Source of the DNA: Blautia sp.
GTDB lineage: Bacteria > Bacillota > Clostridia > Lachnospirales > Lachnospiraceae
Length of the DNA: 64,000 bases
Assembly (NCBI GenBank): GCA_022764275.1
Contig: JALERH010000028.1
Coordinates: 1 to 64,000 of the forward strand
Direction: 5' to 3'
Under the pieces are notes generated by a model. That model was not told the origin of the DNA. It searched no databases and saw nothing but the letters and a program-made list of their open reading frames with translations. Numbering within the stretch: the first letter of the stretch is position 1; each line of letters begins with the position of its first letter. Shown here in pieces: positions 40,030-59,818 of this stretch. Made by a program: the position numbers and the translations under genes.

Positions 40030-41190
40030 TTGATAATAAAAAGAAAATATGTGAGCCCCATTATGACGGTTATCCTGTCCGTGCTGCTGGTGGGAAATAT
40101 GTCTGTTCAGGCAGCTGGGGTGGTGAGTAACGGAACCATGGGGCAGGTTACCTCAGATGCGTCTCTGCCGGCGCCTCCGGATACTTTTTCGGAGACAGCT
40201 GTTCTGATGGATGCGGATACCGGAAAGGTCCTTTATGGAAAAGGGGAAAATGACATTCGTTATCCGGCCAGTATCACAAAGCTGATGACGCTGCTTCTGG
40301 CAGTGGAAAATGCTTCACTGGAGGATCAGGTGACCTTTACTGAGACCGGTGTGAGGGAAGTGACCCCGGACAGCGGAAACATCGGCATGCAGGTGGGCGA
40401 GGTGATGTCCATGGAATCCTGCCTTTACGCCGCCATTATTCAGTCCGCAAATGAGGTTTCCACTCAGATTGCAGAGTATGTGGGCGGAACGGAGGAGCAT
40501 TTCATCGAGATGATGAACCAGAAGGCGCAGGAACTGGGATGCAAAAATACTCATTTTGTAAATGCCAACGGAATGCCGGATGAGAACCACTATTCCACTG
40601 CATATGACATGGCTCTGATCATGCAGGCTGGTCTGAAAAATGAAACCTTCCGGGAAATCATCCGTACACCGAGTTATACGATCCCGGCTACCAATATGAG
40701 CAAGAAGCGCAAGCTTCACACACATCTGCCTCTGCTGGCGGAGGAATCGGCCTTTTATTACGAAGGCTGCCTTGGAGGAAAGACAGGACTTACCACTGCG
40801 GCACAAAATACCATGGTGGTGGCAGCTCAGAGGGACGGCAGCACATATATTGTGGTGACCATGCGGGACGCCGAACTCAGCAAAAACTGTACGGACAGCA
40901 TCAACCTTCTGGATTATGCGTTCAATAATGTGCAGAAGGCTCCCGAACCTAGCCCGACCCCTGAGCCAACGTCTGCACCGGGTCCTGAGCCGGAAAAGTT
41001 TCAGGAGACAGAACCGGCATCTGCGATTACAGAATCGCCTGCAGAGATGGAGCAGCCCCAGTCACAGAAAACAGGTTCTCTTGCCGAATACAGAGACATT
41101 TTGCTGATCATCATGGCAGGAATGGTTGTGATCCTGCTCATTCTATGCATCGCACTTGCAGGAAAGAAGCGCAGAAAGCGCAGAAGATAA
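40030..41190 (+). CDS. D-alanyl-D-alanine carboxypeptidase (DacF-like)
   Basis: SITK, SAN and KTG motifs; signal peptide; C-terminal TM. Confidence 0.92.
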   Translation: MIIKRKYVSPIMTVILSVLLVGNMSVQAAGVVSNGTMGQVTSDASLPAPPDTFSETAVLMDADTGKVLYGKGENDIRYPASITKLMTLLLAVENASLEDQVTFTETGVREVTPDSGNIGMQVGEVMSMESCLYAAIIQSANEVSTQIAEYVGGTEEHFIEMMNQKAQELGCKNTHFVNANGMPDENHYSTAYDMALIMQAGLKNETFREIIRTPSYTIPATNMSKKRKLHTHLPLLAEESAFYYEGCLGGKTGLTTAAQNTMVVAAQRDGSTYIVVTMRDAELSKNCTDSINLLDYAFNNVQKAPEPSPTPEPTSAPGPEPEKFQETEPASAITESPAEMEQPQSQKTGSLAEYRDILLIIMAGMVVILLILCIALAGKKRRKRRR

Positions 41191-41206
41191 AAAAAGGAGA
41201 AGAAAA

Positions 41207-41761
41207 ATGGGAAAAATTAAAGTAACAAACTGTGGAGACATTGAAGGATTAAAGGTGATTGAGCCGACTGTTTTCGGGGATTCCAGAGGATATTTTATGG
41301 AAACCTATAATTACAATGATTTTAAGGAAGCGGGAATTGACGTGGAATTTGTCCAGGACAACCAGTCCTGTTCCAGGTACGGTGTTCTGAGAGGCCTTCA
41401 TTTTCAGATCAATTACCCGCAGGACAAGCTTGTCCGTGTGGTAAACGGCGAGGTGTTTGACGTTGCTGTGGATTTGAGAGAAGGCTCCAAAACCTACGGA
41501 AAATGGTTTGGCGTGCTTCTTTCTGCAGAAAATAAAAAACAGTTCTTTATTCCAAAGGGATTTGCACACGGCTTTCTGGTACTGTCCGAGACCGCGGAGT
41601 TTACCTATAAATGTTCTGACTTCTATCATCCAAACGACGAGGGCGGCCTGATCTGGAATGATCCGGATATCGGGGTGGAGTGGCCGATTCCGGAAGGAAT
41701 GGAGCTGATCTTCTCTGACAAGGATCAGAAATGGGGAAGCTTTAAGGAATTCCGAAGATAG
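41207..41761 (+). CDS. rfbC: dTDP-4-dehydrorhamnose 3,5-epimerase
   Basis: GVLRGLHFQ, DVAVDLREGSKTYGKW, FIPKGFAHGFLVLS. Confidence 0.95.
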   Translation: MGKIKVTNCGDIEGLKVIEPTVFGDSRGYFMETYNYNDFKEAGIDVEFVQDNQSCSRYGVLRGLHFQINYPQDKLVRVVNGEVFDVAVDLREGSKTYGKWFGVLLSAENKKQFFIPKGFAHGFLVLSETAEFTYKCSDFYHPNDEGGLIWNDPDIGVEWPIPEGMELIFSDKDQKWGSFKEFRR

Positions 41762-41770
41762 GAGAATGCT

Positions 41771-42586
41771 ATGCTGAAAACGATTCTGGCTCTTCCGGCG
41801 GATGTTTACAAAAACCGCCGGATGGTCATGAAACTGGCCAAAAATGATTTTAAGACCCGATATGCCGGTTCCTATTTCGGAACCTTCTGGGCTTTTGTTC
41901 AGCCGATTGTTACCATTCTGGTGTACTGGTTTGTATTTTCCGTGGGCTTTCGTTCCAATACGGACAGCGTGGGAGTGCCTTTTGTGCTCTATCTGGTTGC
42001 GGGAATCGTTCCGTGGTTCTTCTTTCAGGATTCCCTGATCGGAGGGACGAATTCCCTTATTGAATATAATTATCTCGTAAAGAAAGTCGTCTTTAATATC
42101 AGTGTTCTTCCGGTTGTGAAGATAATTTCTGCCATATTTGTACACGGCTTTTTTGTGTTGTTTACGATTATTCTGTATATGTGTTACGGAAGATTTCCGG
42201 ATCTCTATTATCTGCAGCTCATTTATTACAGTTTTTGCGTATTTGTGCTGGTACTGGGAGTCTGTTATGCTACCTGCTCCATTGTGATCTTTTTCCGGGA
42301 TCTGACCCAGATGATCAACATTGGCCTTCAGGTGGGAGTATGGCTCACTCCAATTATGTGGGTGGCAGAGGATGCCCTGAAAGGACATGCTCTTCTGCAG
42401 AAGATTCTGCAGTTAAATCCCATGTATTATATTGTGTCCGGATATCGGGATTCCCTGATCATGAAACGCTGGTTTTTTGAACGTCCTTTGTGGACCCTTT
42501 ATTTCTGGCTGTTTGCCATTGGCTGTTTCCTTCTTGGAAACTGGATATTCCGGCGTCTTCGTGTTCATTTTGCCGATGTACTGTAA
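41771..42586 (+). CDS. Polysaccharide ABC exporter permease (Wzm/TagG-like)
   Basis: ABC-2 TM topology; DFKTRYAGSYFGTFWAFVQPI. Confidence 0.93.
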   Translation: MLKTILALPADVYKNRRMVMKLAKNDFKTRYAGSYFGTFWAFVQPIVTILVYWFVFSVGFRSNTDSVGVPFVLYLVAGIVPWFFFQDSLIGGTNSLIEYNYLVKKVVFNISVLPVVKIISAIFVHGFFVLFTIILYMCYGRFPDLYYLQLIYYSFCVFVLVLGVCYATCSIVIFFRDLTQMINIGLQVGVWLTPIMWVAEDALKGHALLQKILQLNPMYYIVSGYRDSLIMKRWFFERPLWTLYFWLFAIGCFLLGNWIFRRLRVHFADVL

Positions 42587-42606
42587 GAGGAGAGAAAGGA
42601 AACAAC

Positions 42607-43863
42607 GTGGAAAGTAAAAATGCCATTGAAGTAAAACATTTATCAAAAATGTATAAGCTCTACGACAAGCCCTCTGACCGACTGAAAGAGTCTCTGGGCC
42701 TGACCCGTAAAAAGCGTTATCGGGAGCATTATGCACTGCGGGATATCAACTTTAATATTCACGAGGGAGAATGCGTGGGAATCATCGGAACCAATGGATC
42801 TGGAAAATCCACCATTCTGAAAATCATAACCGGAGTTCTGGCACCTACAGAAGGGGAGGTAAAAGTTAACGGACGTATTTCCGCTCTGCTGGAGCTGGGT
42901 GCAGGATTTAATATGGAATATTCCGGACTGGAAAACGTGTATCTGAACGGTACCATGATCGGTTTTTCAGAAGAGGAGATCGACGCAAGACTGGATGATA
43001 TCCTTGCCTTTGCGGACATCGGTGACTATATCCATCAGCCGGTTAAAATGTATTCCAGCGGTATGTTTGTCCGGCTTGCCTTTGCGGTTGCCATTAACAT
43101 TGACCCGGAAATCCTGATCGTGGATGAGGCGTTGTCCGTGGGAGACGTCTTTTTTCAGGCAAAATGCTATCACAAATTTGAAGAATTTAAACAGCAGGGA
43201 AAGACAATCCTGTTCGTAAGCCATGATCTGGGAAGCGTGTCCAAATACTGTGACCGGGTGATTCTGCTGAATCAGGGTGTCATGCTGGATGAAGGCACAC
43301 CCAAGGCCATGGTGGATATGTACAAGCAGCTTCTGGTTCACCAGGATCCTGTGAAACAGGCTGAAGGAGAGGACAAAAAGCCGGAGGAAAACTGGAGGGA
43401 AGGCTTCCAGGTGAACCCCAATACTCTGGAATACGGGGAAAAACAGGCGGAAATCAAGGATTTTGTCGTGCTGGATGACAAAGGACGTCAGACCAATACC
43501 ATTGAAAAGGGAAGCACTTTCCGAATCAAGATGAAGATACACTTTAACGAAGATATCCAGCAGCCCATTATGGCATACACCTTTAAAAATATACAGGGAA
43601 CGGAGATTACCGGAACCAATACCATGTACGAAGGTGTCACTGTGGAGCATCCGGATGCTGGCAGAGAGTGTGTGGTGACCTTTGAACAGAGGATGGATCT
43701 TCAGGGTGGGGAATATCTTCTGTCCTTTGGATGTACCGGATACAAAGACGGAGATTTTGCTGTATTTCACCGCCTTTATGACGCATGTAACATTACAGTT
43801 GTCTCTTCCAAAAATACGGTGGGCTTTTACGATATGAATTCCAGCGTATCCGTGGAAGAATAA
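42607..43863 (+). CDS. Polysaccharide ABC exporter ATPase with C-terminal Wzt-type domain
   Basis: Walker A GTNGSGKSTI, MYSSGMFVRLAF, IVDEALSVGD; about 140-aa C-terminal beta-sandwich. GTG 42607. Confidence 0.94.
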   Translation: MESKNAIEVKHLSKMYKLYDKPSDRLKESLGLTRKKRYREHYALRDINFNIHEGECVGIIGTNGSGKSTILKIITGVLAPTEGEVKVNGRISALLELGAGFNMEYSGLENVYLNGTMIGFSEEEIDARLDDILAFADIGDYIHQPVKMYSSGMFVRLAFAVAINIDPEILIVDEALSVGDVFFQAKCYHKFEEFKQQGKTILFVSHDLGSVSKYCDRVILLNQGVMLDEGTPKAMVDMYKQLLVHQDPVKQAEGEDKKPEENWREGFQVNPNTLEYGEKQAEIKDFVVLDDKGRQTNTIEKGSTFRIKMKIHFNEDIQQPIMAYTFKNIQGTEITGTNTMYEGVTVEHPDAGRECVVTFEQRMDLQGGEYLLSFGCTGYKDGDFAVFHRLYDACNITVVSSKNTVGFYDMNSSVSVEE

Positions 43864-43875
43864 AAGGAGATTTCC

Positions 43876-44802
43876 ATGCAGGAAAAAATAGGAAATGTTG
43901 TTTTGGATTATGAATATTATCCCGGAGAAGATCTGTACAGCGACGGACCGGTGGAGGAGGAGCTTCTTGAGATTGCGAAAAGTCATAAGGAAGAGGAACT
44001 GAACCAGGTAATTGCGCAGAAGAACAGCTGGCCGGTGCTTTACCATTTTTCCCATATCCGCCAGAACATTCTGGAATGGATCCCCATGACAAAAAAAGAT
44101 AAGGTTCTGGAAATAGGGTCAGGCTGCGGTGCCATCACCGGTGCACTTGCCAGAAAAGCAGGCAGCGTGACCTGTATCGAGCTGTCAAAAATGCGCAGTA
44201 CCATCAATGCATACCGCAACCGGGATTACGAAAATGTAAAGATCATGGTAGGAAATTTCCAGGATATTGAAAAAAATCTGGAAGAGAAATTTGATTATAT
44301 CACCCTGATCGGGGTGTTTGAATATTCGGAGGGGTATATTGGTACTCGCGAGCCCTATGTAGAAATGTTGAAAAGAATCTCCGCACATCTGGCACCCGGT
44401 GGAAAACTGGTGATTGCCATTGAAAACCGCCTGGGCCTGAAATACTGGGCAGGATGTACAGAGGACCATGTGGGGAAATTCTTTGAAGGACTGGAAGGGT
44501 ATCCCGGGACGAAAGGCGTCAAAACCTTTTCCAGGAAAGAACTGCAGAACCTGATTGACCAGGCAGGAAAGTTTCATACTGCCTTTTATTATCCCTATCC
44601 GGATTATAAATTCCCAATGACGATTTATTCAGATAAGAGACTGCCGAAAAAAGGTGAACTGAGGGATAACTTCTGCAACTTTGACCGTGCCAGAATGCAG
44701 CTTTTTGATGAGCCAAAGGTGTATGATTCCCTGGTGGATGCAGGACTGTTTCCTGAATTTTCCAATTCTTTTCTGGTTCTGGTAGAAAAGGAGGAAGTGT
44801 GA
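43876..44802 (+). CDS. Class I SAM-dependent methyltransferase
   Basis: VLEIGSGCGAITGALA (motif I), GGKLVIAIENRLGLKYW. Confidence 0.9.
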   Translation: MQEKIGNVVLDYEYYPGEDLYSDGPVEEELLEIAKSHKEEELNQVIAQKNSWPVLYHFSHIRQNILEWIPMTKKDKVLEIGSGCGAITGALARKAGSVTCIELSKMRSTINAYRNRDYENVKIMVGNFQDIEKNLEEKFDYITLIGVFEYSEGYIGTREPYVEMLKRISAHLAPGGKLVIAIENRLGLKYWAGCTEDHVGKFFEGLEGYPGTKGVKTFSRKELQNLIDQAGKFHTAFYYPYPDYKFPMTIYSDKRLPKKGELRDNFCNFDRARMQLFDEPKVYDSLVDAGLFPEFSNSFLVLVEKEEV

Positions 44803-46052
44803 TGGACGAAATCCTTTACAGCAAATATTCTAATGAGAGAAGCCGAAGCTTTGCCATCCGCACTGACATTCTGGAGGGAAAAGCCGGGTATTATGTAGAG
44901 AAAAAAGCCCTTTATCCGGAAGGAAAGGCTCATGTAGACGAAATTTACCGCTGGTATGAAAAGCTGACCGGGATTTATCAGGAGATTGGCTTTGCCTGCA
45001 ACCGTTGTGAAAAGACAGAAGATGGCGTCCGTCTGGAATACCTGGAAGGACAGACGCTGGAAGAATTTCTGGATGGACTTTTGGAAAAGGGCTGCGTGGA
45101 AGAGGCAAAAGAACGGCTGATGTCATATCTGGAACAGGTCCGCACGCTGTATGACAAAGAGCTGTTTCAGGTAACGGAACATTTTGAAAAGGTTTTTGGC
45201 AGGGAAAAGGCTCCAGAAGGAATGACCTGCGCAGAAATCACCAATATTGATATGGTGTGTGAAAATGTGGTGCTGACTGCGCCGCCAACTGTCCTGGACT
45301 ACGAATGGACCTTTGATTTTCCGGTACCCTGTCAGTTCGTGCTGTACCGGATCATTCACTATTATATCGCCACCCACAGCGCCCGTGAAATTCTAAGCGA
45401 AGAAGCGTTTTGTGAGGCATTTTGCATCACCCGGGAGATGAGGGAATATTTTGACCGGATGGAGAGCCATTTTCAGGAATACCTTACACAGGGGCACATC
45501 CCCATGAGAGAAATGTTTGCATCCATGACACCTGGCGTGGGAAACGAGCAGATGGTGACAGGAGAGCAGCTTCAGATATTCTTTATGACAGACGGAGGAT
45601 ATCAGCCGGAGAATTCGGTAAGTTATCCCATTATGGACAATCATGTTTCCTGTACCGTGAAGCTGCCGGAGGGATGCCCCATGCTGCGCATCGACCCGGG
45701 CAATCATCCCTGTGCGGTTTATCTGGAAAAGGTTCTTTTTGACGGGCAGAAGGCTTCTCTTAAGGATGCTGTGGTTCCGGAAGGTGTGATTACCGGAAAA
45801 TGGGCATACCTTGCCAAAAGTGACCCGAATATCGTAAATCTTCCTGTTCCGGAAGGGGCAAAGGAGTTTCAGGTCTCTCTCCGGGTTTATCCGGGGACAA
45901 AGGAGCTGGTTGCTGCAGCCTGTGATACCGGAAAGGAAAATAAGGTGCTCCGCGCACGAATTTCCAAGGTGCCCAAAGCAGTCTGGAACATGAGAAACAC
46001 AAAGGTCTGGAAGCTGTATAAAAAGTGCCGCAGCAAGGCGGAGAGGAAATAA
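44802..46052 (+). CDS. Kinase-fold (APH/WbdD-kinase-like) protein with C-terminal beta domain
   Basis: YYVEKKAL (beta3 Lys), VRLEYLEGQTLEEFL (hinge), NIDMVCENVV (catalytic loop), VLDYEWTF (metal Asp); TGATG overlap with the methyltransferase. Confidence 0.65.
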   Translation: MDEILYSKYSNERSRSFAIRTDILEGKAGYYVEKKALYPEGKAHVDEIYRWYEKLTGIYQEIGFACNRCEKTEDGVRLEYLEGQTLEEFLDGLLEKGCVEEAKERLMSYLEQVRTLYDKELFQVTEHFEKVFGREKAPEGMTCAEITNIDMVCENVVLTAPPTVLDYEWTFDFPVPCQFVLYRIIHYYIATHSAREILSEEAFCEAFCITREMREYFDRMESHFQEYLTQGHIPMREMFASMTPGVGNEQMVTGEQLQIFFMTDGGYQPENSVSYPIMDNHVSCTVKLPEGCPMLRIDPGNHPCAVYLEKVLFDGQKASLKDAVVPEGVITGKWAYLAKSDPNIVNLPVPEGAKEFQVSLRVYPGTKELVAAACDTGKENKVLRARISKVPKAVWNMRNTKVWKLYKKCRSKAERK

Positions 46053-46055
46053 GAA

Positions 46056-48560
46056 ATGGATGACCATGTTGTGATTTTGGATAGCTGCCATTACAGCGTG
46101 AAGGATAACGGAACCTGCATCCTGACGGGGTGGATGTTTACAGAGGAGGAAGAGCCCTTTGTACAGGTGAGGGCGGACCATATCCCTTTGGAATGCCGGA
46201 TGAAGCGTGTCCCCAGACCGGATGTCCTTGCTGCAAGGAAAGATTTGGATTTTCCCGATGAGAATGCAGGATTTGAGGTGCGGATTCCCAATATGGAGCA
46301 GATTTTTTCCCTGGCAAAAACCTTCCGGGCACGTATTATCTGCGGCAGAGAGAGCTATCCCCTGATTCAGAAGGCGATGGCACAGGTACGGGAGGAATAT
46401 TATGCCGATACTCTGAGACTCTTCATGGAATGTGTGGAAAAAAGAAGGGACAAGGTATATCTCCAGGGGTGCTGTATCAATACGGCCGGAGAACTTCAGA
46501 TACAGGTTCTGGACGGGGAGGGAAGACAGCAGGACGGTGTTTTGGTCACTCCCATACGGAGAGCGGATCTTCCGGAGGCGTTTGGTGTGGAACTGTCCCA
46601 GTGCCATGGTTTTGCCATTGAGATTCCCCGGGAAAAGATTAAAAGCAGATCCATACATCTGGTGCTGTCCAACTGCGTCACAGAAAAAAGGGAAGCCGTC
46701 CTCATGGGAAAATTTGACCGGGAGAATACCCGCCTTGGACGGATGATAAAGGCTATGGGACCGGAAAATAAAGAGAAAAACCGTGCCATGGTGAAAAAAA
46801 TGGGCATTCGCGGATTCGTAGATTATCTGCGGGAAGAAACCGGCTCTTTCACAGATACCTACAGCTATTATGAGAAAAAACACAGAGCAGCCCCAAAAGA
46901 ACTGAGACGTCAGGCAAAAGAAAGTTTTCCGGGCGGACCGAAGTTTTCCATTGTGGTGCCTCTTTACCACACTCCCCAGGACTACCTGAAGCAGCTGATC
47001 GACTCTGTCATTGCACAGAGCTACGGAAACTGGCAGCTCTGCCTGGCAGACGGAAGTGCAGATACTTCCCTGGAGAAATTCATCAACGATCATTATAAAG
47101 GGGAGAATCGGATTTCCTGCCATCATCTGGAGAAAAATCTGGGAATCTCGGAAAATACAAACGCCGCCATTGCCATGGCAGAGGGAGATTATATCGCTTT
47201 TGCGGATCACGATGATCTGCTGACGCCGGATGCCCTGTATCATATAGCACGCACCTGTCAGGAATACCCGGATACAGAGCTGATTTATTCAGACGAAGAC
47301 CTGATCGATGAAAAGGGAAATCCTGTGTATCCTCATTTCAAACCGGATTTTAACCTGGATTATCTCCGGTGTATCAATTATATCTGCCACCTTACCGTGG
47401 TAAAAAAATCTCTGCTTGAGCGTACCGGACTTTTAAGAAAGGAATTTGACGGAGCACAGGATTACGATTTTATCCTGCGGTGTGTGGAACAGACGGAAAA
47501 AATACGCCATATTCCGAGAGTACTGTATCACTGGAGGAGCCATGAAGGCTCCACGGCCGGCAATCAGGAGGAAAAAACCTATGCCATAGAGGCTGGAAGG
47601 AAAGCACTGCAGGAGCATTATGAGCGGCTGGGAATAGAGGCGGAGACCGAATTCACAGGAATGTTCATTGTGTACCGTACGAAGTTCAAAGTGCAGGGGA
47701 ATCCCCTGGTTTCCATCCTGATCCCCAATAAGGATCACTGGAAGGACCTGGAGAAATGTATCACCTCGATACAGGAAAAAAGCACCTGGAAAAATGTGGA
47801 GATTGTGGTGATCGAGAATAACAGTGTGGAAGCAGAGACCTTTACATTTTATGAAAGCCTTAAGAAGCGGTATACCAATGTAAAAGTCGTGACTTATGAG
47901 GGAGAGTTTAATTATTCGGCCATCAATAATTTGGGGGCTTCTCATGCAAAGGGGGATTATTTTCTGCTTCTGAACAATGATACAGAAGTGATCTCTCCGG
48001 ACTGGCTGGAACGAATGCTGGGCTACTGCCAGAGAGAGGACGTGGCCATTACAGGTGCCAGACTGTATTATCCTGACAACACGGTGCAGCATGCCGGCGT
48101 GGTAGTGGGAATGGGTGGCTTTGCAGGACATATTCTGACTGGATTTGGAAAGGATCATTCCGGATATATGGGACGCCTGCGGGCAGCTCAGGACATCAGC
48201 GCTGTGACAGGTGCCTGCCTGATGGTAAAGCGCAGTGTTTTTGAAGAGCTGAACGGACTGGACGAAAAGTTTGCGGTGGCTTTAAATGACGTGGATTTCT
48301 GCCTGCGGGCCAGAGCCCTTGGAAAACTTGTGGTGTATGTGCCGGAAGCAGAGCTTTACCATTATGAATCGAAATCAAGGGGGCTGGAGCAGACGCCGGA
48401 AAAAAAGGAGCGCTTCCAGCGTGAAATCGATCTTTTCCGGGAACGCTATGAAAAGCTTTTGAAAGCAGGAGACCCTTATTATAATCCCAATCTCAGCCTG
48501 GTTCAGGGAGACTGTTCCCTGCGTCTGGCTTATGAGACTGTGAAAGGAAATGAAAAATGA
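46056..48560 (+). CDS. Tandem-domain GT2 glycosyltransferase with N-terminal accessory domain
   Basis: Two GT-A domains: FSIVVPLYHTPQDYL..ADHDDLLTPDALY and VSILIPNKDHWKDL..LLNNDTEVISPDWLERML. Confidence 0.92.
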   Translation: MDDHVVILDSCHYSVKDNGTCILTGWMFTEEEEPFVQVRADHIPLECRMKRVPRPDVLAARKDLDFPDENAGFEVRIPNMEQIFSLAKTFRARIICGRESYPLIQKAMAQVREEYYADTLRLFMECVEKRRDKVYLQGCCINTAGELQIQVLDGEGRQQDGVLVTPIRRADLPEAFGVELSQCHGFAIEIPREKIKSRSIHLVLSNCVTEKREAVLMGKFDRENTRLGRMIKAMGPENKEKNRAMVKKMGIRGFVDYLREETGSFTDTYSYYEKKHRAAPKELRRQAKESFPGGPKFSIVVPLYHTPQDYLKQLIDSVIAQSYGNWQLCLADGSADTSLEKFINDHYKGENRISCHHLEKNLGISENTNAAIAMAEGDYIAFADHDDLLTPDALYHIARTCQEYPDTELIYSDEDLIDEKGNPVYPHFKPDFNLDYLRCINYICHLTVVKKSLLERTGLLRKEFDGAQDYDFILRCVEQTEKIRHIPRVLYHWRSHEGSTAGNQEEKTYAIEAGRKALQEHYERLGIEAETEFTGMFIVYRTKFKVQGNPLVSILIPNKDHWKDLEKCITSIQEKSTWKNVEIVVIENNSVEAETFTFYESLKKRYTNVKVVTYEGEFNYSAINNLGASHAKGDYFLLLNNDTEVISPDWLERMLGYCQREDVAITGARLYYPDNTVQHAGVVVGMGGFAGHILTGFGKDHSGYMGRLRAAQDISAVTGACLMVKRSVFEELNGLDEKFAVALNDVDFCLRARALGKLVVYVPEAELYHYESKSRGLEQTPEKKERFQREIDLFRERYEKLLKAGDPYYNPNLSLVQGDCSLRLAYETVKGNEK

Positions 48561-51004
48561 ATCAGCAATTACTGATAGTAGAAAAAGAACGTTTTTTTCT
48601 GAATGACGGATGTAAATATCTGATCTGCGGAATCATTCCGGATAAATATACGGTGGAGGCGTATCTGGACGGACAGAAGGCTTTGGTTTCCATGGAACGG
48701 ATCATCGCAAAAACAGCGGTGGAGCGTTTTAAGGACGAGGAACTGATGGGCGGTATCCGGGTGGAAGTGCTGGTGACACTGCCTGAAAACCTGGAGAAAT
48801 ACAAAAATCTGGACGTCTTTGCTGTTTTGGAAGGAGACCGCCAGAAGTGGTTCCATGTGAAGGTGCATGATCTTCTTTGCCGTCGCGGAAAGCCGCAGTA
48901 TTTTCTGGAAGAAGAACGGGTGATCCGCAAAGAGAAAAAACTGGTTCTTCAGGGGTGGGCTGCCGCTGAGACTCCGGTGCAGATACGGCTTTTTGACGAG
49001 AAAAAACAGCCGCTTGATGTGCAGATCCGTCGGAACAGCCGCATGGATGTGACAGAAATGTTCCGGGAATGTCCTGTGGAAAAGAATTGTGGCTTTTACG
49101 CTGAGGTGGAGCCGGTGAAAGGGCGGTATCTGTATCTCGTAATGCGTGACAGAAATGGCGCAAAATCCGTTTATAAGGTTGGAATTGGCCCCGGGGAAGT
49201 CCTCCTGGGAAAGGCCTCCAGATACCGGAAAAAGGGAATGGACTATCTCAAAGCGCACGGTGCGAAAGCCCTGACTCAGAAGGTAATCCACAAGCTTACG
49301 GACGTTTCCATGAGACCGATGGAATATTCGGAATGGCTGCCAAAGCATCTGCCCACAAAGTCGGAGCTGGAGAAACAGAGAAAGACAAAATTTTTAAATG
49401 GTCCAAAATTCAGCATCGTGGTACCCCTTTATAAGACCGGCGAAGAGTATCTGAAGGCCCTGATCGAATCTGTGCAGGCCCAGACCTATACAAACTGGGA
49501 GCTTTGCCTGTCCGATGGAAGCGGAGAAAATTCTCCCATCCGGGAACTTCTGGAGAAATATGAACAGCAGGATGCGAGAATCCGGGTCGTCTATCATGAA
49601 GCACCTCTTCGCATTGCGGAAAATACCAACGAAGCCATCCGAATTGCGGCTGGAGATTTTATTGCATTTGCGGATCACGATGATGTGCTGACACCTAACG
49701 CTCTGTATGAGTGCGCAAAGGCGCTGGAGGAGCATCCACAGACAGAGGTCCTTTATACGGACGAAGATAAAATGTCCATCCATGGAAATAAATTTTTCCA
49801 GCCGAATTTCAAACCGGATTTTAACCTGGATCTACTCTGTACAGTGAATTATATCTGTCATCTGTTTGTGGCAAAGCGAGAACTGCTGGATAAAGTGGGA
49901 GTGCTGCGCGCAGAATTTGACGGTGCACAGGACTATGATCTGATCCTTCGCTGTGTGGAGGCTACGGAGAGAATTTATCATATCCCGAAGATTCTTTATC
50001 ACTGGAGAAGCCATGAGGACTCTACGGCAGAGAATCCGGAAAGCAAAATGTACGCTTTTGATGCAGGCGAGCGTGCCGTTCAGGCGCACTTTGACCGGAT
50101 CGGGGTAAAAGCAGAGGTTTATAAAGGAGAATTTCTGGGGCTGTACCGGACACGTTATATCCGGGATTACGATCCTCTGATTTCTATTATTATTCCAAAC
50201 AAGGATCATACGGATGACCTGGAGCGGTGCATAAAGTCCATCGAAGAAAAATCCACGTACCGAAATTTTGAATATATTATCGTGGAGAACAACAGTACAG
50301 AGGAAGCTACCTTTGCTTACTATAAAGAGCTGGAAGCGAAAAATCCAAAAGCACATGTGGTTTACTGGGACAGGGAATTCAATTACTCCGAGATCAATAA
50401 TTTCGGTGCATCCTTCGCAAAGGGTGAATATCTGCTGCTTCTCAACAACGACACGGAAGTGATCAATGAGGACTGGCTGGAGGAAATGCTGGGCTACTGC
50501 ATGCGTGAGGATGTGGGCATCGTAGGCGCCAGACTGTACTATGAGGATGATACCATTCAGCATGCGGGGGTTGTTCTTGGATTCGGCGGCATTGCAGGCC
50601 ATTGTTTTGTCCAGCAGCCGAGAGGAAATACAGGTTACCAGCACCGTATTATCTGCGCACAGGATTACAGTGCTGTGACCGCAGCCTGCCTGATGGTAAA
50701 AAAAGCAGTCTTTGACCAGGTGGGCGGTTTAAGTGCAGACCTTGCAGTGGCATTTAACGATATAGATTTCTGCCTGAAGGTGAGAAATGCCGGCTATCTG
50801 GTGGTGTACAATCCCTATGCTGAGCTTCACCACTATGAGTCAAAATCCAGAGGCCTGGAAAATACACCGGAGAAAAAGGAGCGCTTTAACAAAGAAGTGG
50901 CAACACTGGAGGCGCACTGGCCTGAAATATTCAGCAAACCGGATCCTTACTATAATCCGAACCTCACTCTGAAAAGCCAGGATTTTTCCCTGAAACGGAT
51001 TTAG
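48557..51004 (+). CDS. Tandem-domain GT2 glycosyltransferase (paralog)
   Basis: Same architecture: FSIVVPLYKTGEEYL..ADHDDVLTPNALYE and ISIIIPNKDHTDDL..LLNNDTEVINEDWLEEML. Confidence 0.92.
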   Translation: MNQQLLIVEKERFFLNDGCKYLICGIIPDKYTVEAYLDGQKALVSMERIIAKTAVERFKDEELMGGIRVEVLVTLPENLEKYKNLDVFAVLEGDRQKWFHVKVHDLLCRRGKPQYFLEEERVIRKEKKLVLQGWAAAETPVQIRLFDEKKQPLDVQIRRNSRMDVTEMFRECPVEKNCGFYAEVEPVKGRYLYLVMRDRNGAKSVYKVGIGPGEVLLGKASRYRKKGMDYLKAHGAKALTQKVIHKLTDVSMRPMEYSEWLPKHLPTKSELEKQRKTKFLNGPKFSIVVPLYKTGEEYLKALIESVQAQTYTNWELCLSDGSGENSPIRELLEKYEQQDARIRVVYHEAPLRIAENTNEAIRIAAGDFIAFADHDDVLTPNALYECAKALEEHPQTEVLYTDEDKMSIHGNKFFQPNFKPDFNLDLLCTVNYICHLFVAKRELLDKVGVLRAEFDGAQDYDLILRCVEATERIYHIPKILYHWRSHEDSTAENPESKMYAFDAGERAVQAHFDRIGVKAEVYKGEFLGLYRTRYIRDYDPLISIIIPNKDHTDDLERCIKSIEEKSTYRNFEYIIVENNSTEEATFAYYKELEAKNPKAHVVYWDREFNYSEINNFGASFAKGEYLLLLNNDTEVINEDWLEEMLGYCMREDVGIVGARLYYEDDTIQHAGVVLGFGGIAGHCFVQQPRGNTGYQHRIICAQDYSAVTAACLMVKKAVFDQVGGLSADLAVAFNDIDFCLKVRNAGYLVVYNPYAELHHYESKSRGLENTPEKKERFNKEVATLEAHWPEIFSKPDPYYNPNLTLKSQDFSLKRI

Positions 51005-51019
51005 AAAGAGAAACTGGAA

Positions 51020-52462
51020 ATGAAAAATTTTTTGAAAAATGAAAAATATCTTGGCGGGATACTGGTGGGGCTTGCTTTTCTGATCATGTTTATCTGGGCG
51101 ATGATCGGTACGATGCCCACCGGACCCGATGAAGGGATGCGCTACTCGGTGGCGCAGTACCTTTATAAAAATCCGGGAAAGCTTCCGCATGGGGATGATG
51201 AGGCGATACGAAATGCCAGATGGGGAATTTCGTATGGCTTCTCTCCAATTCTGTCTTATATGGTATCGGCAGTCTTTATGTGGATGGTGAGTATTATTAC
51301 CACAGAGAAGATGGCCCTGCTTCGGGCTGCAAGAATGGCTGATGTACTCTTTATCACAGCTGCCGCCTGGATGGTGCTTCAGATTGGAAAAAGACTTTTC
51401 TCAGATAAGGGACAGCGCTGGCTGTTCTGCGTACTGGTGATTTTTCTTCCTGAGTTTTTATTTATGGGAGCCTATGTGAACACGGATTCTCTGGCGTTGA
51501 TGGCAGGGGCGATGATCCTTCTGGCATGGGTGCGATATCTGGACGAAGGATGGACCTGGAAAAACTGTTTCCTTCTGGCAGCAGGCATGGGAATCTGCTT
51601 TTTATCTTACTATAATGCGTATGGATGGATTTTATGGAGCGCGTTTTTCTTTTGCATGACTGTGCTTTTCTGCTCCGATGCATCCTGGAAAGAACGATGG
51701 AAATTCCTTTTTGGCAGAGGAATCGCCATTGCCGGTGTTACCCTCGGGATTGCGGGCTGGTGGTTTATCCGAAACTTTGTGATTTACGATGGAGATATTC
51801 TGGGACGCCATGCCAGCGACCTCTGTGCGGAAAAATATGCGTGGCCGGATTTTAAGCCATCGGTACGCATGACACCGGAGAAACTGGGATGGTCCTGTAA
51901 AGATCTGTTTCTTTATCAGGATCCCGGCTGGCAGCACAACTGGCTGATTACCGTAATGTTCAGCTTCATCGGAACTTTCGGGTATTTCCACATTTTTATG
52001 AACGAAACGGTGAGTAAAATTTATGTGTTGTTTCTGACTGTGGGAATGTGTGGAGTTTTCTGGATGCTCCGGGAATTTTACTGGAGAAAATCCACAGTTT
52101 CCATTATCCGGGTGCCGGATGCTGCCAAGGGGAAGCCTGTAAAGATAAAAACGATCTCAGGATTCCGGGAATGGAACAAAAAAGGATTTTTTCACCTTTC
52201 CATGGCAGCTGCTATGGTAACGCCGGTGGTCCTGTTCATCAGCTATGCGTATCATAGCGACCTCCAGGCACAGGGAAGATATATCCTGCCGGCTGTATAC
52301 CCCATCATGTACTTTGTGGTATGCGGTTATGGAAAGCTGCTGAAAAAATTCGTGAAAAGAGAAGAAGTGCGAAAGTGGTTTTACCGGATTACGGCAGTGC
52401 TTTGGGTGCTTGGAGCAGTGATTACTTTTGTGTCCCTGATCTTACCGGAATATCTGGGATAA
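51020..52462 (+). CDS. Polytopic membrane protein (DUF2142/GT-C-like)
   Basis: About 10 TMs; PTGPDEGMRYSVAQYL; located among GT genes. Confidence 0.7.
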   Translation: MKNFLKNEKYLGGILVGLAFLIMFIWAMIGTMPTGPDEGMRYSVAQYLYKNPGKLPHGDDEAIRNARWGISYGFSPILSYMVSAVFMWMVSIITTEKMALLRAARMADVLFITAAAWMVLQIGKRLFSDKGQRWLFCVLVIFLPEFLFMGAYVNTDSLALMAGAMILLAWVRYLDEGWTWKNCFLLAAGMGICFLSYYNAYGWILWSAFFFCMTVLFCSDASWKERWKFLFGRGIAIAGVTLGIAGWWFIRNFVIYDGDILGRHASDLCAEKYAWPDFKPSVRMTPEKLGWSCKDLFLYQDPGWQHNWLITVMFSFIGTFGYFHIFMNETVSKIYVLFLTVGMCGVFWMLREFYWRKSTVSIIRVPDAAKGKPVKIKTISGFREWNKKGFFHLSMAAAMVTPVVLFISYAYHSDLQAQGRYILPAVYPIMYFVVCGYGKLLKKFVKREEVRKWFYRITAVLWVLGAVITFVSLILPEYLG

Positions 52463-52523: not shown

Positions 52524-53780
52524 TCAGCTTTTGATGATCTTTGCCATTTTCCAGATCAGCAATCCCAGCAAAATAACGAACACTGCTGCGATGATATAGT
52601 AAGGAATGTAAGTATGAGAGTCGGAATAATCCTTTGCAGCCTGCATATTTTGTTCGCCCTGGAGGGCTGCTGTATCATCCTGCTCTTCTGTTATCTCCAG
52701 TTCTGCTGTACCGACAGGGGTTCCGCCAAAAAGATAAGTACGGTGAATCTGTCCGTCTGCCTGTTCATCCTGTGTGGTCAGTGCGTCGGAAGTGGTACCT
52801 GCGGGAACCACCACATTGCCGCCGGAAATCACACTGAAATCCTCATCTCCCAGAGAAAGCATCGTAAACTGTCCGAAACCGTAATCCAGAAGCGTGGCAG
52901 CCTCCGGAGTCGTCTGCCCGGAAGCACCCTTTAATACAACACAGATCAGGGTCATGCCGTTTCGCTCGGCTGCACAGACCAGTGTGCTGCCGGAAGCCTC
53001 GGTGTAACCTTCCTTGCCTCCGATGCAGCCCTGATAAAAATTGGGACTGGAGGACTCAGCCATGGTAAATTTGTTCGTCAGGTTCCGAACGCCGCCGGAT
53101 TTGTTGGTGGCAGGAATGGTATAAGCAGTGGCAGAAGCAATGGGGCGGAAAGTGTCATTATCAATCGCTGCCTTCATGATCAGTGCCATGTCGTGAGCAG
53201 TGGTATGCTGGTTCTCATCCGGCAGCCCGGTGGGATTGGTAAACACCGTATTGGTACACCCCAGCTCCTGGGCACGGGTATTCATCATCTGGACAAAGCC
53301 TTCTACCGAACCTCCGATATGTTCTGCCACCTGCAGGGCGATATCATTGGCAGAGGCTACCATTATGGCATATAAGCACTGCTCTATGGTGAATACCTCG
53401 TCAATCTGGGAAGAAATATTGGCTCCGCCGTCGGTTACGCCCGATACGCCGGTGGCGGTCATGGTCACTTCATCCGTCAGATTACTGTTTTCCAGGACCA
53501 GAAGGCAGGTCATGATTTTTACCGTGCTTCCTGGAAAAAGCACTTCGTCCATGTTTTTGGAATACAGCATGGTATTTGTCGTATCTTCCATCACAACAGC
53601 AGCTTCAGAGGTGATGTCCGTGCCCTGCGGCCATCCCGGAATTGTGTTGGTGGATATCGCTGTGACAGTTTCCTGAACCTGTACATCGGAAGCTTCTTCC
53701 GCAGAAACCGGTATCCCCAAAAGCAGAGAAGCCGAAAGGCCAAGTGCCAGCAGCCCTGAGATGATTCTTTTTCTTTTCAT
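52524..53780 (-). CDS. D-alanyl-D-alanine carboxypeptidase family protein
   Basis: STVK, SAN, and KEG in place of KTG (GGKEGYTE); signal peptide and C-terminal TM. Confidence 0.9.
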   Translation of the reverse strand: MKRKRIISGLLALGLSASLLLGIPVSAEEASDVQVQETVTAISTNTIPGWPQGTDITSEAAVVMEDTTNTMLYSKNMDEVLFPGSTVKIMTCLLVLENSNLTDEVTMTATGVSGVTDGGANISSQIDEVFTIEQCLYAIMVASANDIALQVAEHIGGSVEGFVQMMNTRAQELGCTNTVFTNPTGLPDENQHTTAHDMALIMKAAIDNDTFRPIASATAYTIPATNKSGGVRNLTNKFTMAESSSPNFYQGCIGGKEGYTEASGSTLVCAAERNGMTLICVVLKGASGQTTPEAATLLDYGFGQFTMLSLGDEDFSVISGGNVVVPAGTTSDALTTQDEQADGQIHRTYLFGGTPVGTAELEITEEQDDTAALQGEQNMQAAKDYSDSHTYIPYYIIAAVFVILLGLLIWKMAKIIKS

Positions 53781-54046
53781 AATTAATTTGTACTCCTGTT
53801 TGTTTATCCGTGTATTTTCTGGTATAAAAACAAGTATTGTCAGTATACCACATTTTATTTATTTTCTGTAAAATAAATACTTTTTGGAAATCTACATTCT
53901 TTCCCCATCATATCCCATTTTACTCTGCAATTCAACTGGAACTTTTTGAGTCCGCCTCTATTTCAACCTGCACCGCATGCGCGGCTTGCAAAAAGTACAG
54001 GATAATGGTAAAATAAACAATCATTATAAGTACAGAGGATCATTTG

Positions 54047-55906
54047 ATGAACAAAGACAAAGGATTCATTGGAAAAATACAGTGGAACAGGCTTTTCAAA
54101 AAGCTTTCCCCCTATACGATACAGAAAGGTTTCCGCTACCTGAAACACTACGGACCAAAGGAATTCTGGATTCGCCTCCATGAGCGGTTTGAGCCGGAGG
54201 AAGTGCCGTACGGTCCCTGGTATGAGGCCTACATTCCGGATGAGGAAGCCCTGGAAAAGCAGAGAAAACATAAATTTAAAGAGGAGCCTCTGATCAGTGT
54301 GGTGGTTCCGGCGTATCGGACGCCGAAACTCTTTTTATGTCAGATGATGGACTCTCTTCTGGCGCAGACGTATTCAAACTGGGAGCTTTGTATCGCAAAC
54401 GGAAGCCCTGAAGATGAGGACATGCAGAAGGCACTGAAGGAATATACCGGAAAGGATGCGCGCATCCGTTTTCTCAATCTGAAGGAGAATCTGGGGATTG
54501 CGGAAAATACCAACCAGGCTTTTCAAATGGCACAGGGAGAATTTATCGGGCTTTTGGATCATGATGATCTGCTGGCCCCAAATGCACTCTACGAAATCGT
54601 GTCCGCCATCAACAGGGAACCTCAGACCGATGCGGTGTACACAGATGAGGATAAAGTTACCACGAATCTGGATGAGCATTTTCAGCCTCATCTGAAACCG
54701 GATTTCAACCTGGATCTTCTGCGTTCCAATAATTATATCTGTCACTTCTTTGTGGTACGCTGCAGCATCGTGGAAAAGGTGGGCGGCTTTCGCAGGGAGT
54801 TTGACGGGGCACAGGATTATGACTTTATTTTCCGCTGCGTGGAGAAAGCCCGGAAAGTAACGCACGTTCCCGAAATCCTTTATCACTGGCGAACCCACAA
54901 GTCCTCCACAGCAGATAATCCTGCCAGCAAGATGTACGCTTTTGACGCAGGCAAACGGGCTATTGAAGCGCATCTTATGCGCACCGGGACAAAGGGCATC
55001 GTAAGTCATACTCCGGATCTGGGGTTTTACCGGGTACAGTATCCGGTACAGGAAAAACCGCTGGTATCCATTATCATCCCGAACAAGGATGAAAAGGAAA
55101 CTTTGCAGAAATGTCTGGAATCCATTCGCAAAAGTACGGATTACAAAAATTATGAGATCATTATCGTGGAAAACAACAGTACCACAGATGAGATTTTTGA
55201 CTATTACAAAGAACTTTCCAGAGAGCCGGATATCCGCCTGCTTCGCTGGAAAAAGGATTTTAATTACTCTGCCATCAACAATTTCGGTGCGAAGCACGCA
55301 AAAGGAGATTATCTCCTGTTTCTGAATAACGATATTACGGTTATCACTCCGGAATGGATGAGTGAGATGCTGGGCGTGTGCGAACGGCCGGAAGTAGGAG
55401 CAGTGGGCGTAAAGCTGCTCTATCCGGACAACACCATTCAGCATGCCGGGTGCGTGGTCGGTATGGGAGGAATTGCGGGTCATATGTTTGTGGATATGCC
55501 TGCACAGAGAACCGGATACCTTCATAAGGCGTCCATTCTTCAGGATATGAGCGCTGTGACAGCCGCCTGCATGATGGTAAAGAAAAGCGTATTTGAGATG
55601 GCAGGGGGCTTTACCGAGGAGCTTTCCGTAGCCTTCAACGATGTGGATCTCTGCCTGAAAATAGGAAAATGCGGATATCTGGTGGTTTATGATCCGTATG
55701 CAAAGCTTTACCATATGGAGTCCAAAACCAGGGGCGCAGAGGACAACAAGGCAAAAGTGCGCCGTTTCCAGACTGAGATTGAATATATGAGATGTCACTG
55801 GATCGATATCTTAAAAAACGGTGACCCAAATTACAACAAAAATCTTTCCCTGACCAAATGGAATTATTCCCTGAAGCCGCTTCCGGGAATGGGAAAGGAA
55901 AAATAA
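54047..55906 (+). CDS. Tandem-domain GT2 glycosyltransferase (third paralog)
   Basis: ISVVVPAYRTPKLFL..LDHDDLLAPNALYE and VSIIIPNKDEKETL..FLNNDITVITPEWMSEML. Confidence 0.92.
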   Translation: MNKDKGFIGKIQWNRLFKKLSPYTIQKGFRYLKHYGPKEFWIRLHERFEPEEVPYGPWYEAYIPDEEALEKQRKHKFKEEPLISVVVPAYRTPKLFLCQMMDSLLAQTYSNWELCIANGSPEDEDMQKALKEYTGKDARIRFLNLKENLGIAENTNQAFQMAQGEFIGLLDHDDLLAPNALYEIVSAINREPQTDAVYTDEDKVTTNLDEHFQPHLKPDFNLDLLRSNNYICHFFVVRCSIVEKVGGFRREFDGAQDYDFIFRCVEKARKVTHVPEILYHWRTHKSSTADNPASKMYAFDAGKRAIEAHLMRTGTKGIVSHTPDLGFYRVQYPVQEKPLVSIIIPNKDEKETLQKCLESIRKSTDYKNYEIIIVENNSTTDEIFDYYKELSREPDIRLLRWKKDFNYSAINNFGAKHAKGDYLLFLNNDITVITPEWMSEMLGVCERPEVGAVGVKLLYPDNTIQHAGCVVGMGGIAGHMFVDMPAQRTGYLHKASILQDMSAVTAACMMVKKSVFEMAGGFTEELSVAFNDVDLCLKIGKCGYLVVYDPYAKLYHMESKTRGAEDNKAKVRRFQTEIEYMRCHWIDILKNGDPNYNKNLSLTKWNYSLKPLPGMGKEK

Positions 55907-56990: not shown

Positions 56991-58394
56991 TTGATTAAAG
57001 ACAATCAGAAGAATTTCAGTCGTCTCCATGTAGTAATAGATGCTTGCGTAATTACATTATCTTATATGTGTGCCTGGGCAATACGATTTGTCGGACCTTT
57101 TGCCGCGACTGCAGTCAGGGCTAGGTCTTTTGAACAATATATGTCTGCCCTGCTTTTTATTTTACCGGTTTATCTGCTTCTGTACCATGCGTTCACTCTG
57201 TATGAGCCCATGCGGATGCAGGGACGCCGGCTTGTGCTGTCCAATATTATCAAGGCAAATTCTCTTGGTATCCTCGTGACGACATTTATCCTGTATACGA
57301 TCGAAGAGGGAAATATTTCACGTTCGATGCTGTATATGTTCTACGGAATCTGTATTGCGGCGAGCTGGAGCATGCGGATGCTGGTCTTTTATACTCTGCG
57401 CAATATGCGCAAAAAAGGCCTCAATCAGAAACAGGTGCTCCTTGTGGGATACAGCCGTGCGGCGGAGGAGTACATCGACCGGATCCTGGAGAACCCCCAG
57501 TGGGGTTATGTGGTAAGGGGAATCCTGGATGACAATGTTCCTTCCGGCACTGTATATAAGGGAATTAAGGTGATCGGTAGGATTGCAAACCTGATGGTCA
57601 TCCTTCCTGCGAACCGACTTGATGAAATTGCAATTACGCTTGGGCTGAATGAGTATTACCGTTTGGAGGAGATTGTAGCTCTCTGTGAAAAATCAGGAGT
57701 ACACACAAAATTTATTCCGGATTATAATAAGATCATTCCGACGAAACCGTATACCGAAGATATTCTGGGACTTCCGGTGATCAATATACGATATGTCCCT
57801 TTGAGCAATACGTTTAATGCAATGGTAAAAAGGGTCATGGATATCATAGGTTCCGTTTTTGGGATTATTGTTGCATCCCCTCTTATGCTTGTGATGTGCG
57901 TTCTTATTAAAATTACTTCACCCGGGCCGCTGATTTATAAGCAGGAGAGAGTAGGGCTTCATAACAGGACTTTCCGGATGTATAAGTTCCGTTCCATGGA
58001 AGTACAGCCGGAGGCAGAAGAGAAGAAATCCTGGACGGTTAAAAATGATCCCAGGGTGACAGGAATCGGAAGATTCATGCGCCGGACAAGCATTGATGAG
58101 CTCCCTCAGCTTTTTAATATTTTAAAAGGCGACATGAGCCTTGTGGGCCCCAGACCGGAGCGTCCGTTTTTCGTGGAGAAGTTCCGTGAGGAAATCCCGA
58201 GATATATGGTGAAGCATCAGGTCAGACCTGGCTTGACCGGCTGGGCTCAGGTAAATGGTTATCGCGGCGACACGTCTATCCGTAAAAGAATCGAATATGA
58301 TCTGTATTATATCGAAAACTGGACGGTTGGATTTGATATCAAAATATTGTTTCTGACAATATTCAAGGGATTTATTAATAAGAATGCGTATTGA
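56991..58394 (+). CDS. Undecaprenyl-phosphate sugar phosphotransferase (WcaJ/CpsE-like)
   Basis: N-terminal TMs, CoA-binding-like domain, C-terminal transferase (YKQERVGLHNRTFRMYKFRSM, RRTSIDELPQLFNILKGDMSLVGPRPERP). TTG start. Confidence 0.95.
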   Translation: MIKDNQKNFSRLHVVIDACVITLSYMCAWAIRFVGPFAATAVRARSFEQYMSALLFILPVYLLLYHAFTLYEPMRMQGRRLVLSNIIKANSLGILVTTFILYTIEEGNISRSMLYMFYGICIAASWSMRMLVFYTLRNMRKKGLNQKQVLLVGYSRAAEEYIDRILENPQWGYVVRGILDDNVPSGTVYKGIKVIGRIANLMVILPANRLDEIAITLGLNEYYRLEEIVALCEKSGVHTKFIPDYNKIIPTKPYTEDILGLPVINIRYVPLSNTFNAMVKRVMDIIGSVFGIIVASPLMLVMCVLIKITSPGPLIYKQERVGLHNRTFRMYKFRSMEVQPEAEEKKSWTVKNDPRVTGIGRFMRRTSIDELPQLFNILKGDMSLVGPRPERPFFVEKFREEIPRYMVKHQVRPGLTGWAQVNGYRGDTSIRKRIEYDLYYIENWTVGFDIKILFLTIFKGFINKNAY

Positions 58395-58408
58395 GAAAGG
58401 AAAAGAAA

Positions 58409-59818
58409 ATGGCTAGACCAGGAAAAAAGAAAAAAACAGCTTTGTTTGTCATTGAGATCATCCTCCTTCTGCTTTTTATTGGCGGGCTGTATGTCTACGG
58501 GCAGATCAATTCCAGACTGGACAAGATTGAGACCCCGACATTCGATGAGAGCAAGGTGGTTACGAATGAGACAGCACCGCAGATGACAGGATACAGTACG
58601 TATGCGCTGTTCGGGATTGACCATCGTTCCAAAAACAAGGCGCTGGGATCCGACAACAGCGATACGATGATCATTGCCAGTGTAAACAATGATACAAAAG
58701 ACGTCAAGCTCGTATCGGTCTACAGAGATACGCTTCTGGATATTGGCGGCGATACCTATACCAAGGCGAATGCAGCTTATGCATATGGTGGTCCGGAGCA
58801 GGCTATTTCCATGCTGAATACCATGCTGGACCTGAATATTACGGATTATGCCACTGTGGATTTTAACGCCATGGTGACTGCGATTGATGCACTGGGAGGA
58901 CTGGATATTCCCATGTCCTATGCAGAGCTTGTCTTTATGAACGATTACTGTGTGGAGACTTCAGAGGAGACAGGAGTGGGATATACGCCTATCGAGCTCC
59001 CCGAGAGGCCAGAGGATATCGAGGCAATCATCGGCGAGTATCATCTGAACGGTGTGCAGGCAGTTTCCTACTGCCGTATCCGTTATACCGCAAGTCTGGA
59101 TATGGGACGTACCGAGAGACAGAGAAGAGTGATCCAGCTTATGGTGCAGAAGGCAAAAAAAGCCGGGCTGACTACGATTTTTGGCATCATGGATGAAGTA
59201 TTCCCTCTGGTAAAGACTTCTCTGAGCAAGACAGCTATTTTGAATATGATTCCTGCAGTGATCGGCTACAGCATTGATGATACGGTTGGATTTCCATCCA
59301 AATATAAGTTTGCAAATATCAAAGCAGGAAGCATCATTGTAGCGGATACTCTTATTGATAATGTCGTGGAGCTGCATAAATTCCTGTATGGAGATACAGA
59401 CTATACACCATCCCGGAATATTCAGGATGCGAGTGACAAAATTATGGAGATCGTGGGCGGCGCGGATACTCTGGTAGACGAGGCTCCTGTAAACGAGGAA
59501 ACGGATACTACCGCGGAAATCGTATGGCAGGGTGACGGAAGCGGAAACTATAATTATACGGACTACACAGATGGAGATTATTCCGGCGGAGACTATTCCG
59601 GCGGGGATAATTCCGGCGGGGGTAATTCCGGCGGAGATTATTCCGGAGGAGACGATTACGACGGCGACTATTCTGACGGGGATAATTCCGGAGGAGACTT
59701 CTCCGATGGCGATAATTCTGACGGCGATTATTCAGATGGAGATACTTCCGGAGGCGATGGCAGTTATGAGGATTCGTCTGACTGGGAAGACAGTTATTCC
59801 GATGGCACAGAAGAATAG
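58409..59818 (+). CDS. LytR-CpsA-Psr (LCP) family protein with Gly/Asp/Ser repeat tail
   Basis: ALFGIDHRSKNKALGSDNSDTMIIASV, VYRDTLLDI, YCRIRYTASLDMGRTERQRRV; tail rich in GDYSGGD. Confidence 0.93.
   Translation: MARPGKKKKTALFVIEIILLLLFIGGLYVYGQINSRLDKIETPTFDESKVVTNETAPQMTGYSTYALFGIDHRSKNKALGSDNSDTMIIASVNNDTKDVKLVSVYRDTLLDIGGDTYTKANAAYAYGGPEQAISMLNTMLDLNITDYATVDFNAMVTAIDALGGLDIPMSYAELVFMNDYCVETSEETGVGYTPIELPERPEDIEAIIGEYHLNGVQAVSYCRIRYTASLDMGRTERQRRVIQLMVQKAKKAGLTTIFGIMDEVFPLVKTSLSKTAILNMIPAVIGYSIDDTVGFPSKYKFANIKAGSIIVADTLIDNVVELHKFLYGDTDYTPSRNIQDASDKIMEIVGGADTLVDEAPVNEETDTTAEIVWQGDGSGNYNYTDYTDGDYSGGDYSGGDNSGGGNSGGDYSGGDDYDGDYSDGDNSGGDFSDGDNSDGDYSDGDTSGGDGSYEDSSDWEDSYSDGTEE
59573..59770 (+). 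repeat. Degenerate 15-bp tandem repeat encoding (G-D-x-S-G/D) units
   Basis: Repeated GA(T/C)(T/A)ATTCCGGCGGA units in the 3' end of the LCP gene. Confidence 0.85.

Follow-up and report, generated by a model that had tools for sequence, protein, structure and literature searches.

A SAM methyltransferase and a predicted kinase, encoded by overlapping genes behind an ABC glycan exporter in Blautia sp., very likely terminate the chains of a cell-wall glycan that is ABC-exported and probably contains rhamnose. They would add to it a phospho-methyl cap, to be read by the C-terminal domain (Wzt_C) of the exporter ATPase. The pair lies in a stretch of 64,000 nucleotides (assembly GCA_022764275.1, contig JALERH010000028.1, positions 1 to 64,000), hereafter the window. 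Gram-negative O antigens are known to be terminated by a kinase together with a methyltransferase. In the literature that we examined, we found no description of a methyltransferase-kinase pair or of a methyl-phosphate terminator in Gram-positives, though an earlier mention elsewhere is possible. The Gram-positive pair thus seems to be new, with uncertain priority.

Organization of the gene cluster

The terminator pair is part of a cluster of genes of glycan synthesis, export and attachment (Table 1). The two reading frames of the pair are real and translationally coupled: the stop codon of the methyltransferase gene and the start codon of the kinase gene overlap by one base, the common A in TGATG (44800-44804), and GGAGG lies upstream. 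The frames, the overlap and the motifs VEKKAL, LEYLEGQTLEEFL, NIDMVCENVV and VLDYEW, which the first-pass annotation had read from the letters, were all present in the translation. That annotation was likewise correct in placing the pair behind wzm and a wzt with a C-terminal domain and in calling the first protein a SAM methyltransferase, which is of class I.

Table 1. Genes of the glycan cluster in the window, with coordinates, strand and the evidence for each assignment
Feature	Coordinates	Strand	Evidence
rmlC, dTDP-4-dehydrorhamnose 3,5-epimerase	41156..41761	+	PF00908 E 1e-74
Wzm, ABC-2 permease of the glycan exporter	41771..42586	+	PF01061 E 5e-11
Wzt, ATPase with C-terminal Wzt_C (putative cap-reading) domain	42604..43863	+	PF14524 E 6e-45
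SAM methyltransferase of the terminator pair, 308 aa	43876..44802	+	Methyltransf_12 E 9e-12
Kinase of the terminator pair, 416 aa	44802..46052	+	AlphaFold2 mean pLDDT 94.6; APH(3')-Ia Z 14.4
Two-module GT2 glycosyltransferase, likely chain polymerase	46056..48560	+	PF00535, two stretches, E 9e-44
Second two-module GT2 glycosyltransferase	48557..51004	+	PF00535 E 5e-45
Membrane protein, place conserved in such clusters	51020..52462	+	Homologues in related clusters
Third two-module GT2 glycosyltransferase	54044..55906	+	PF00535 E 2e-49
Bac_transf initiating sugar-phosphate transferase	56991..58394	+	PF02397 E 2e-73
LytR-CpsA-Psr (LCP) ligase, likely attachment of glycan to peptidoglycan	58391..59818	+	PF03816 E 3e-33

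The window Wzt aligned over its full length to the Wzt of Aquifex (E 3e-83). The gene before wzm is rmlC in most of the related loci as well, and its presence suggests a supply of dTDP-rhamnose and rhamnose in the glycan. Because the cluster encodes both an initiating Bac_transf transferase and an LCP ligase, its product is likely a peptidoglycan-linked polymer. In several relatives the kinase is fused to the counterpart of the GT2 enzyme that follows it in the window. The conserved membrane protein had no significant Pfam match and could be assigned to no confident family.

Two D-Ala-D-Ala carboxypeptidase-like genes are also part of the stretch occupied by the cluster. One (Peptidase_S11, E 1e-50; 40030-41190) directly precedes rmlC, and the second, recognized by resemblance, lies on the opposite strand amid the cluster genes (52524-53780).

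Fold, active site and C-terminus of the kinase protein

The kinase protein had no significant match in Pfam, NCBIfam or PHROGs, nor in the PDB by sequence; the word kinase in the first-pass annotation was therefore a genuine reading and not a database label. By profile the protein falls outside the APH Pfam family, and its resemblance to APH enzymes is one of fold only. In the AlphaFold2 model, for which 67 homologues were in the input, residues 1-241 form a two-lobed kinase, and the C-terminal beta domain that had also been proposed appears as a beta-sandwich at residues 256-364. The best structural match of the kinase part was APH(3')-Ia, which superposed on 200 residues at 3.3 A with 10% identity, and LicA and KEOPS/Bud32 kinases were also among the matches.

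The catalytic residues K34, D150, N155 and D166 are all present. Further, D150, N155, D166, E168 and W169 were invariant or, in one alignment, almost invariant. K34 was almost invariant in the larger alignment. In APH enzymes the catalytic Asp is followed by Asn five residues on. Since this spacing is kept and the residues are conserved, we expect the domain to have kinase activity.

The 52-residue tail after the beta domain consists of a 32-residue helix (367-398) and a terminal helix (401-415), and it contained no scorable coiled-coil or heptad window. Among relatives that lack a fused glycosyltransferase, the tails range from 11 to 129 residues and some are clearly coil-like. Given the missing extended coiled coil, the control of chain length in the window system must be shorter-range or different.

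We compared the beta domain of the kinase protein with other domains. Homology to Wzt_C and homology to the N-terminal domain of the glycosyltransferase at 46056 were both rejected, as hhalign gave no match. At ten loci, Wzm is 453-471 aa long with an N-terminal extension in which a beta domain lies between two membrane helices. This beta domain resembles that of the kinase protein (hhalign probability 94.6%, E 6e-8), and hydropathy places it outside the membrane. Sharing of the beta domain by other proteins was first seen with a profile that had possibly drifted, and the Wzm case, the one put to a separate profile comparison, held. The same beta module may thus occur on the terminator inside the cell and on the permease outside.

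Homology to proteins of the Klebsiella O7 ORF6 type

In ORF6 of Klebsiella pneumoniae O7, a methyltransferase is followed by an AmiN-like kinase that lacks annotation, an Ig-like module, a coiled coil and two GT2 modules; in vitro the protein phosphorylates O3 of the terminal rhamnose and methylates that phosphate, and the D441A variant is dead (PMC11231755). Our comparison was made not with the ORF6 sequence itself but via a look-alike with matching residue numbers, a plasmid-encoded protein of Pseudomonas asturiensis (1457 aa) that adjoins a Wzm/Wzt ABC exporter and has the architecture published for ORF6-O7. This protein matched the window methyltransferase (tblastn E 1e-44) and a profile of the kinase and beta domains (E 1e-11). 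Its Y28, Y66, G91, G93, E112 and Y158 have the numbers published for ORF6-O7, and these six SAM-site residues map one to one to Y21, Y56, G81, G83, E102 and Y150 of the window methyltransferase. Further, its D443, the likely equivalent of the proven catalytic D441, corresponds to D150 of the window kinase. A plasmid-encoded methyltransferase of Citrobacter also scored 204 bits with the family profile.

The window pair and ORF6-O7 thus have in common the SAM-site residues, an APH/AmiN-like kinase with its catalytic Asp, a beta-sandwich behind the kinase, and a setting of ABC export of a glycan that contains rhamnose (probable in the window). They differ in that the window pair is two polypeptides whereas ORF6 is one, and in that the polymerizing GT2 modules are separate genes in the window. 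In addition, ORF6 serves an LPS O antigen, whereas the window encodes a Gram-positive cell-wall glycan system with an LCP ligase. Because the window kinase lacks the extended coiled coil of ORF6, the pair appears to be, and is filed here as, a homologous variant of the ORF6-O7 type and not a full member.

Distribution of the pair and the nature of the cap

Of 200 genomes from the bacterial family of the window, 103 had a kinase homologue by single-sequence search and 110 by profile, and the two enzymes co-occur with the exporter in about half of the sampled family genomes. Across the wider phylum few genomes had the kinase: it was matched, in some cases weakly, in 9 of 299, and three of these nine belong to the same family. 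When 40 loci were extracted and mapped, methyltransferase and kinase were found together, mostly right behind wzm-wzt. We also examined the best 80 methyltransferase loci in a named collection with one genome per species. The pairing there was near-obligate, with a kinase at 80/80 of these loci, and Wzt_C was encoded on the piece examined in 76/80.

At 45 of the 80 loci the methyltransferase and the kinase are one protein, in that order. Candidatus Blautia faecavium, a close relative with 84% identity to the window in the methyltransferase, has the fused form. A tree built from 117 methyltransferase rows gave 18 changes between the fused and split states by parsimony, at least 7 of them on well-supported branches. 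Given these frequencies and repeated interchanges, both states are common and the split in the window is incidental, so the weight that the first-pass annotation had given to two separate enzymes is not supported.

Fused methyltransferase-kinase proteins, mostly more distant ones, were also seen at four loci with no Wzt_C exporter within 13 kb, and their role may be different. In tblastn searches against plasmids, the kinase gave no match and the methyltransferase gave two. Three INPHARED entries labelled as faecal phages (MT836085.1, MT839147.1 and MT836982.1) contain methyltransferase relatives at 56-57% identity, which may be bacterial DNA and not phage genes.

Two capped glycans of Gram-positives bear on what the pair would add. 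WsaE of Geobacillus stearothermophilus is a chain terminator encoded beside Wzm/Wzt for a rhamnose glycan; unlike the window pair it adds methyl only and has no kinase, its methyltransferase being fused to two glycosyltransferases (PMC2943079). The S-layer glycan of C. difficile Ox247 is ABC-exported and ends in 2,3-cyclophospho-rhamnose (PMC6254364). As is proposed for the window, a Gram-positive cell here exports a rhamnose glycan through an ABC transporter, and the non-reducing end of the chain carries phosphate; but the phosphate is cyclic, and neither a capping enzyme nor a methyltransferase is named (PMC6254364). The Ox247 cap is the only Gram-positive phosphate cap that we found in the literature examined, and it counts against a methyl-phosphate.

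The pair could accordingly terminate chains with another cap. The product of the kinase would then be a cyclic phosphate or a phosphate monoester, while a sugar hydroxyl would be the target of the methyltransferase, acting independently or on another residue. Besides the Ox247 glycan, the O-methyl groups among known Gram-positive caps speak for such a scheme. We nevertheless consider it unlikely, because the methyltransferase groups with the phosphate-methylating ORF6-O7 type and was never found without the kinase at the 80 loci.

Linkage to one class of Wzt_C and an Arg/Trp switch

A search for Wzt_C in the 200 family genomes yielded a strong class (at least 130 bits, 100 loci), a weak class (below 110 bits, 33 loci) and four domains in between. 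A kinase was encoded within 12 kb at 96/100 loci of the strong class and at 0/33 of the weak class, which bears out the co-occurrence with Wzt C-domains that the first-pass annotation had named as a check. Counted by genome, the table was 99/2/5/94 (Fisher p 6e-48, a value that ignores the kinship of the genomes). From the side of the kinase, Wzt_C lay within 12 kb at 98 of 111 loci, so the pair is not commonly found apart from such an exporter. It was absent from that range at 13/111. Most of the exceptional kinase loci that we fetched keep both methyltransferase and kinase; one lies next to an exporter that lacks a C-domain, and for several no exporter was seen within 13 kb.

The transporter side provided an unplanned test. 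One Wzt_C position divides the classes, a correlation among partly related sequences: Arg was present in 115/115 kinase-linked members, and the relatedness of these genes indicates that the conserved Arg is in part shared ancestry. Among the 23 domains outside this set, one with Arg belongs to a locus with a methyltransferase-kinase fusion; the 22 kinase-less domains have Tyr, Phe, Trp or Ile in 21 cases and Arg in one. The residue of the window Wzt, Arg390, aligns with Trp362 of Aquifex Wzt, which recognizes a 3-O-methyl cap; Trp362 lids the methyl group, and its replacement by Leu essentially abolishes binding (PMC9445017).

The position is Trp in E. coli O8 (methyl cap, no kinase) and in O60 (a methyltransferase-like gene, no kinase found), and Arg in O9 (methyl-phosphate), in O99 (a WbdD-like protein) and also in Gram-negative relatives. 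The O9 kinase looks unrelated to that of the window (see below), yet O9 Wzt_C has Arg, which suggests that the Arg follows the cap more than the enzyme. We found no earlier report of the O9a Wzt_C Arg in the literature examined, though an earlier mention elsewhere is possible.

The genome of the window has a second, kinase-less exporter, and there the position is Trp. This exporter is encoded on contig C141 (1-4493), where a Wzm/Wzt of the other Wzt_C class is followed by a plain methyltransferase of 302 aa with a coil-like tail and by no kinase. This methyltransferase is probably a terminator of the methyl-only kind.

These data also bear on whether the pair terminates chains at all. Were it to decorate side groups of the glycan or the lipid carrier, its linkage to Wzt_C would reflect co-transfer of the cluster, and the 13 kinase loci without Wzt_C in range, like some more distant pairs in clusters without an exporter within 13 kb, would be accounted for. 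The linkage is, however, specific to one Wzt_C class, and that class has its Arg in common with the methyl-phosphate reader of O9. We therefore regard decoration as very unlikely.

Comparison with WbdD

The first-pass annotation had proposed a split capping system of the WbdD type. Capping by phosphate plus methyl is supported by the kinase fold, the methyltransferase and the tie to Wzt_C; descent from WbdD is not, and the homologue is of the Klebsiella O7 ORF6 type. The window system has in common with WbdD of E. coli O9/O9a (PMC3482155) the proposed reactions, the gene order and the Arg in Wzt_C. In E. coli HS (O9) the order is wzm-wzt-wbdD-wbdA, the same as wzm-wzt-terminator-polymerase in the window. 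However, WbdD is one protein and the window pair is two. An extended coiled coil is present in the published proteins of the O7 type and in WbdD, where it is a molecular ruler; in place of the WbdD ruler the window kinase has the beta-sandwich and a short tail. Because such a coiled coil sets chain length in known systems, its absence from the window kinase counts against the proposed termination.

The family profile did not recognize the kinase of E. coli O9 WbdD: the score was -0.9 bits (E 0.27), for a match that lay elsewhere in the protein. On the WbdD methyltransferase it gave 4 bits, against the score of the Citrobacter protein. WbdD (4azs/4ax8) was absent among the 50 matches listed for the kinase model, an absence that carries no weight, and in the structure search with a fused relative 4ax8 appeared at rank 41 (E 1.5e-7), spanning both domains at low TM. 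That the pair is a true WbdD descendant whose kinase diverged past sequence recognition, as the like domain and gene orders and the 4ax8 match would allow, is extremely improbable, given that the Pseudomonas protein was matched and WbdD was not, that the kinases of WbdD and of the O7 type are described as quite different in a published comparison (PMC11231755), and that the window protein has no coiled coil.

Proposed function and implications

For termination by a phospho-methyl cap, we propose the following scheme. The adjacent GT2 enzymes would build a lipid-linked polymer, and in the cytoplasm the APH-like kinase, perhaps holding the chain with its beta-sandwich, would phosphorylate the last sugar at the non-reducing end; the methyltransferase would then methylate this phosphate. 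The cap would end chain growth and be recognized by the C-terminal domain of Wzt through a contact of Arg390 with the phosphate. Only capped chains would be exported by Wzm/Wzt, and these would then be joined to peptidoglycan by the LCP ligase.

Taken over the family, it seems on balance probable that a whole class of Gram-positive gut wall glycans ends in methyl-phosphate, made by a terminator that often lacks a coiled-coil ruler, and that a single Wzt_C residue tells the kind of cap in both Gram-positives and Gram-negatives, Arg marking phosphate caps and an aromatic residue such as Trp marking kinase-less exporters. A methyl-phosphate terminator of Gram-positives seems to be widespread in dominant gut bacteria, and it would supply a testable rule for how a cell knows that a wall polymer is finished. 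Terminators without a coiled-coil ruler would reopen the question of how length is set. Further, if the cap code is true, the cap would be predictable from the sequence of the transporter.
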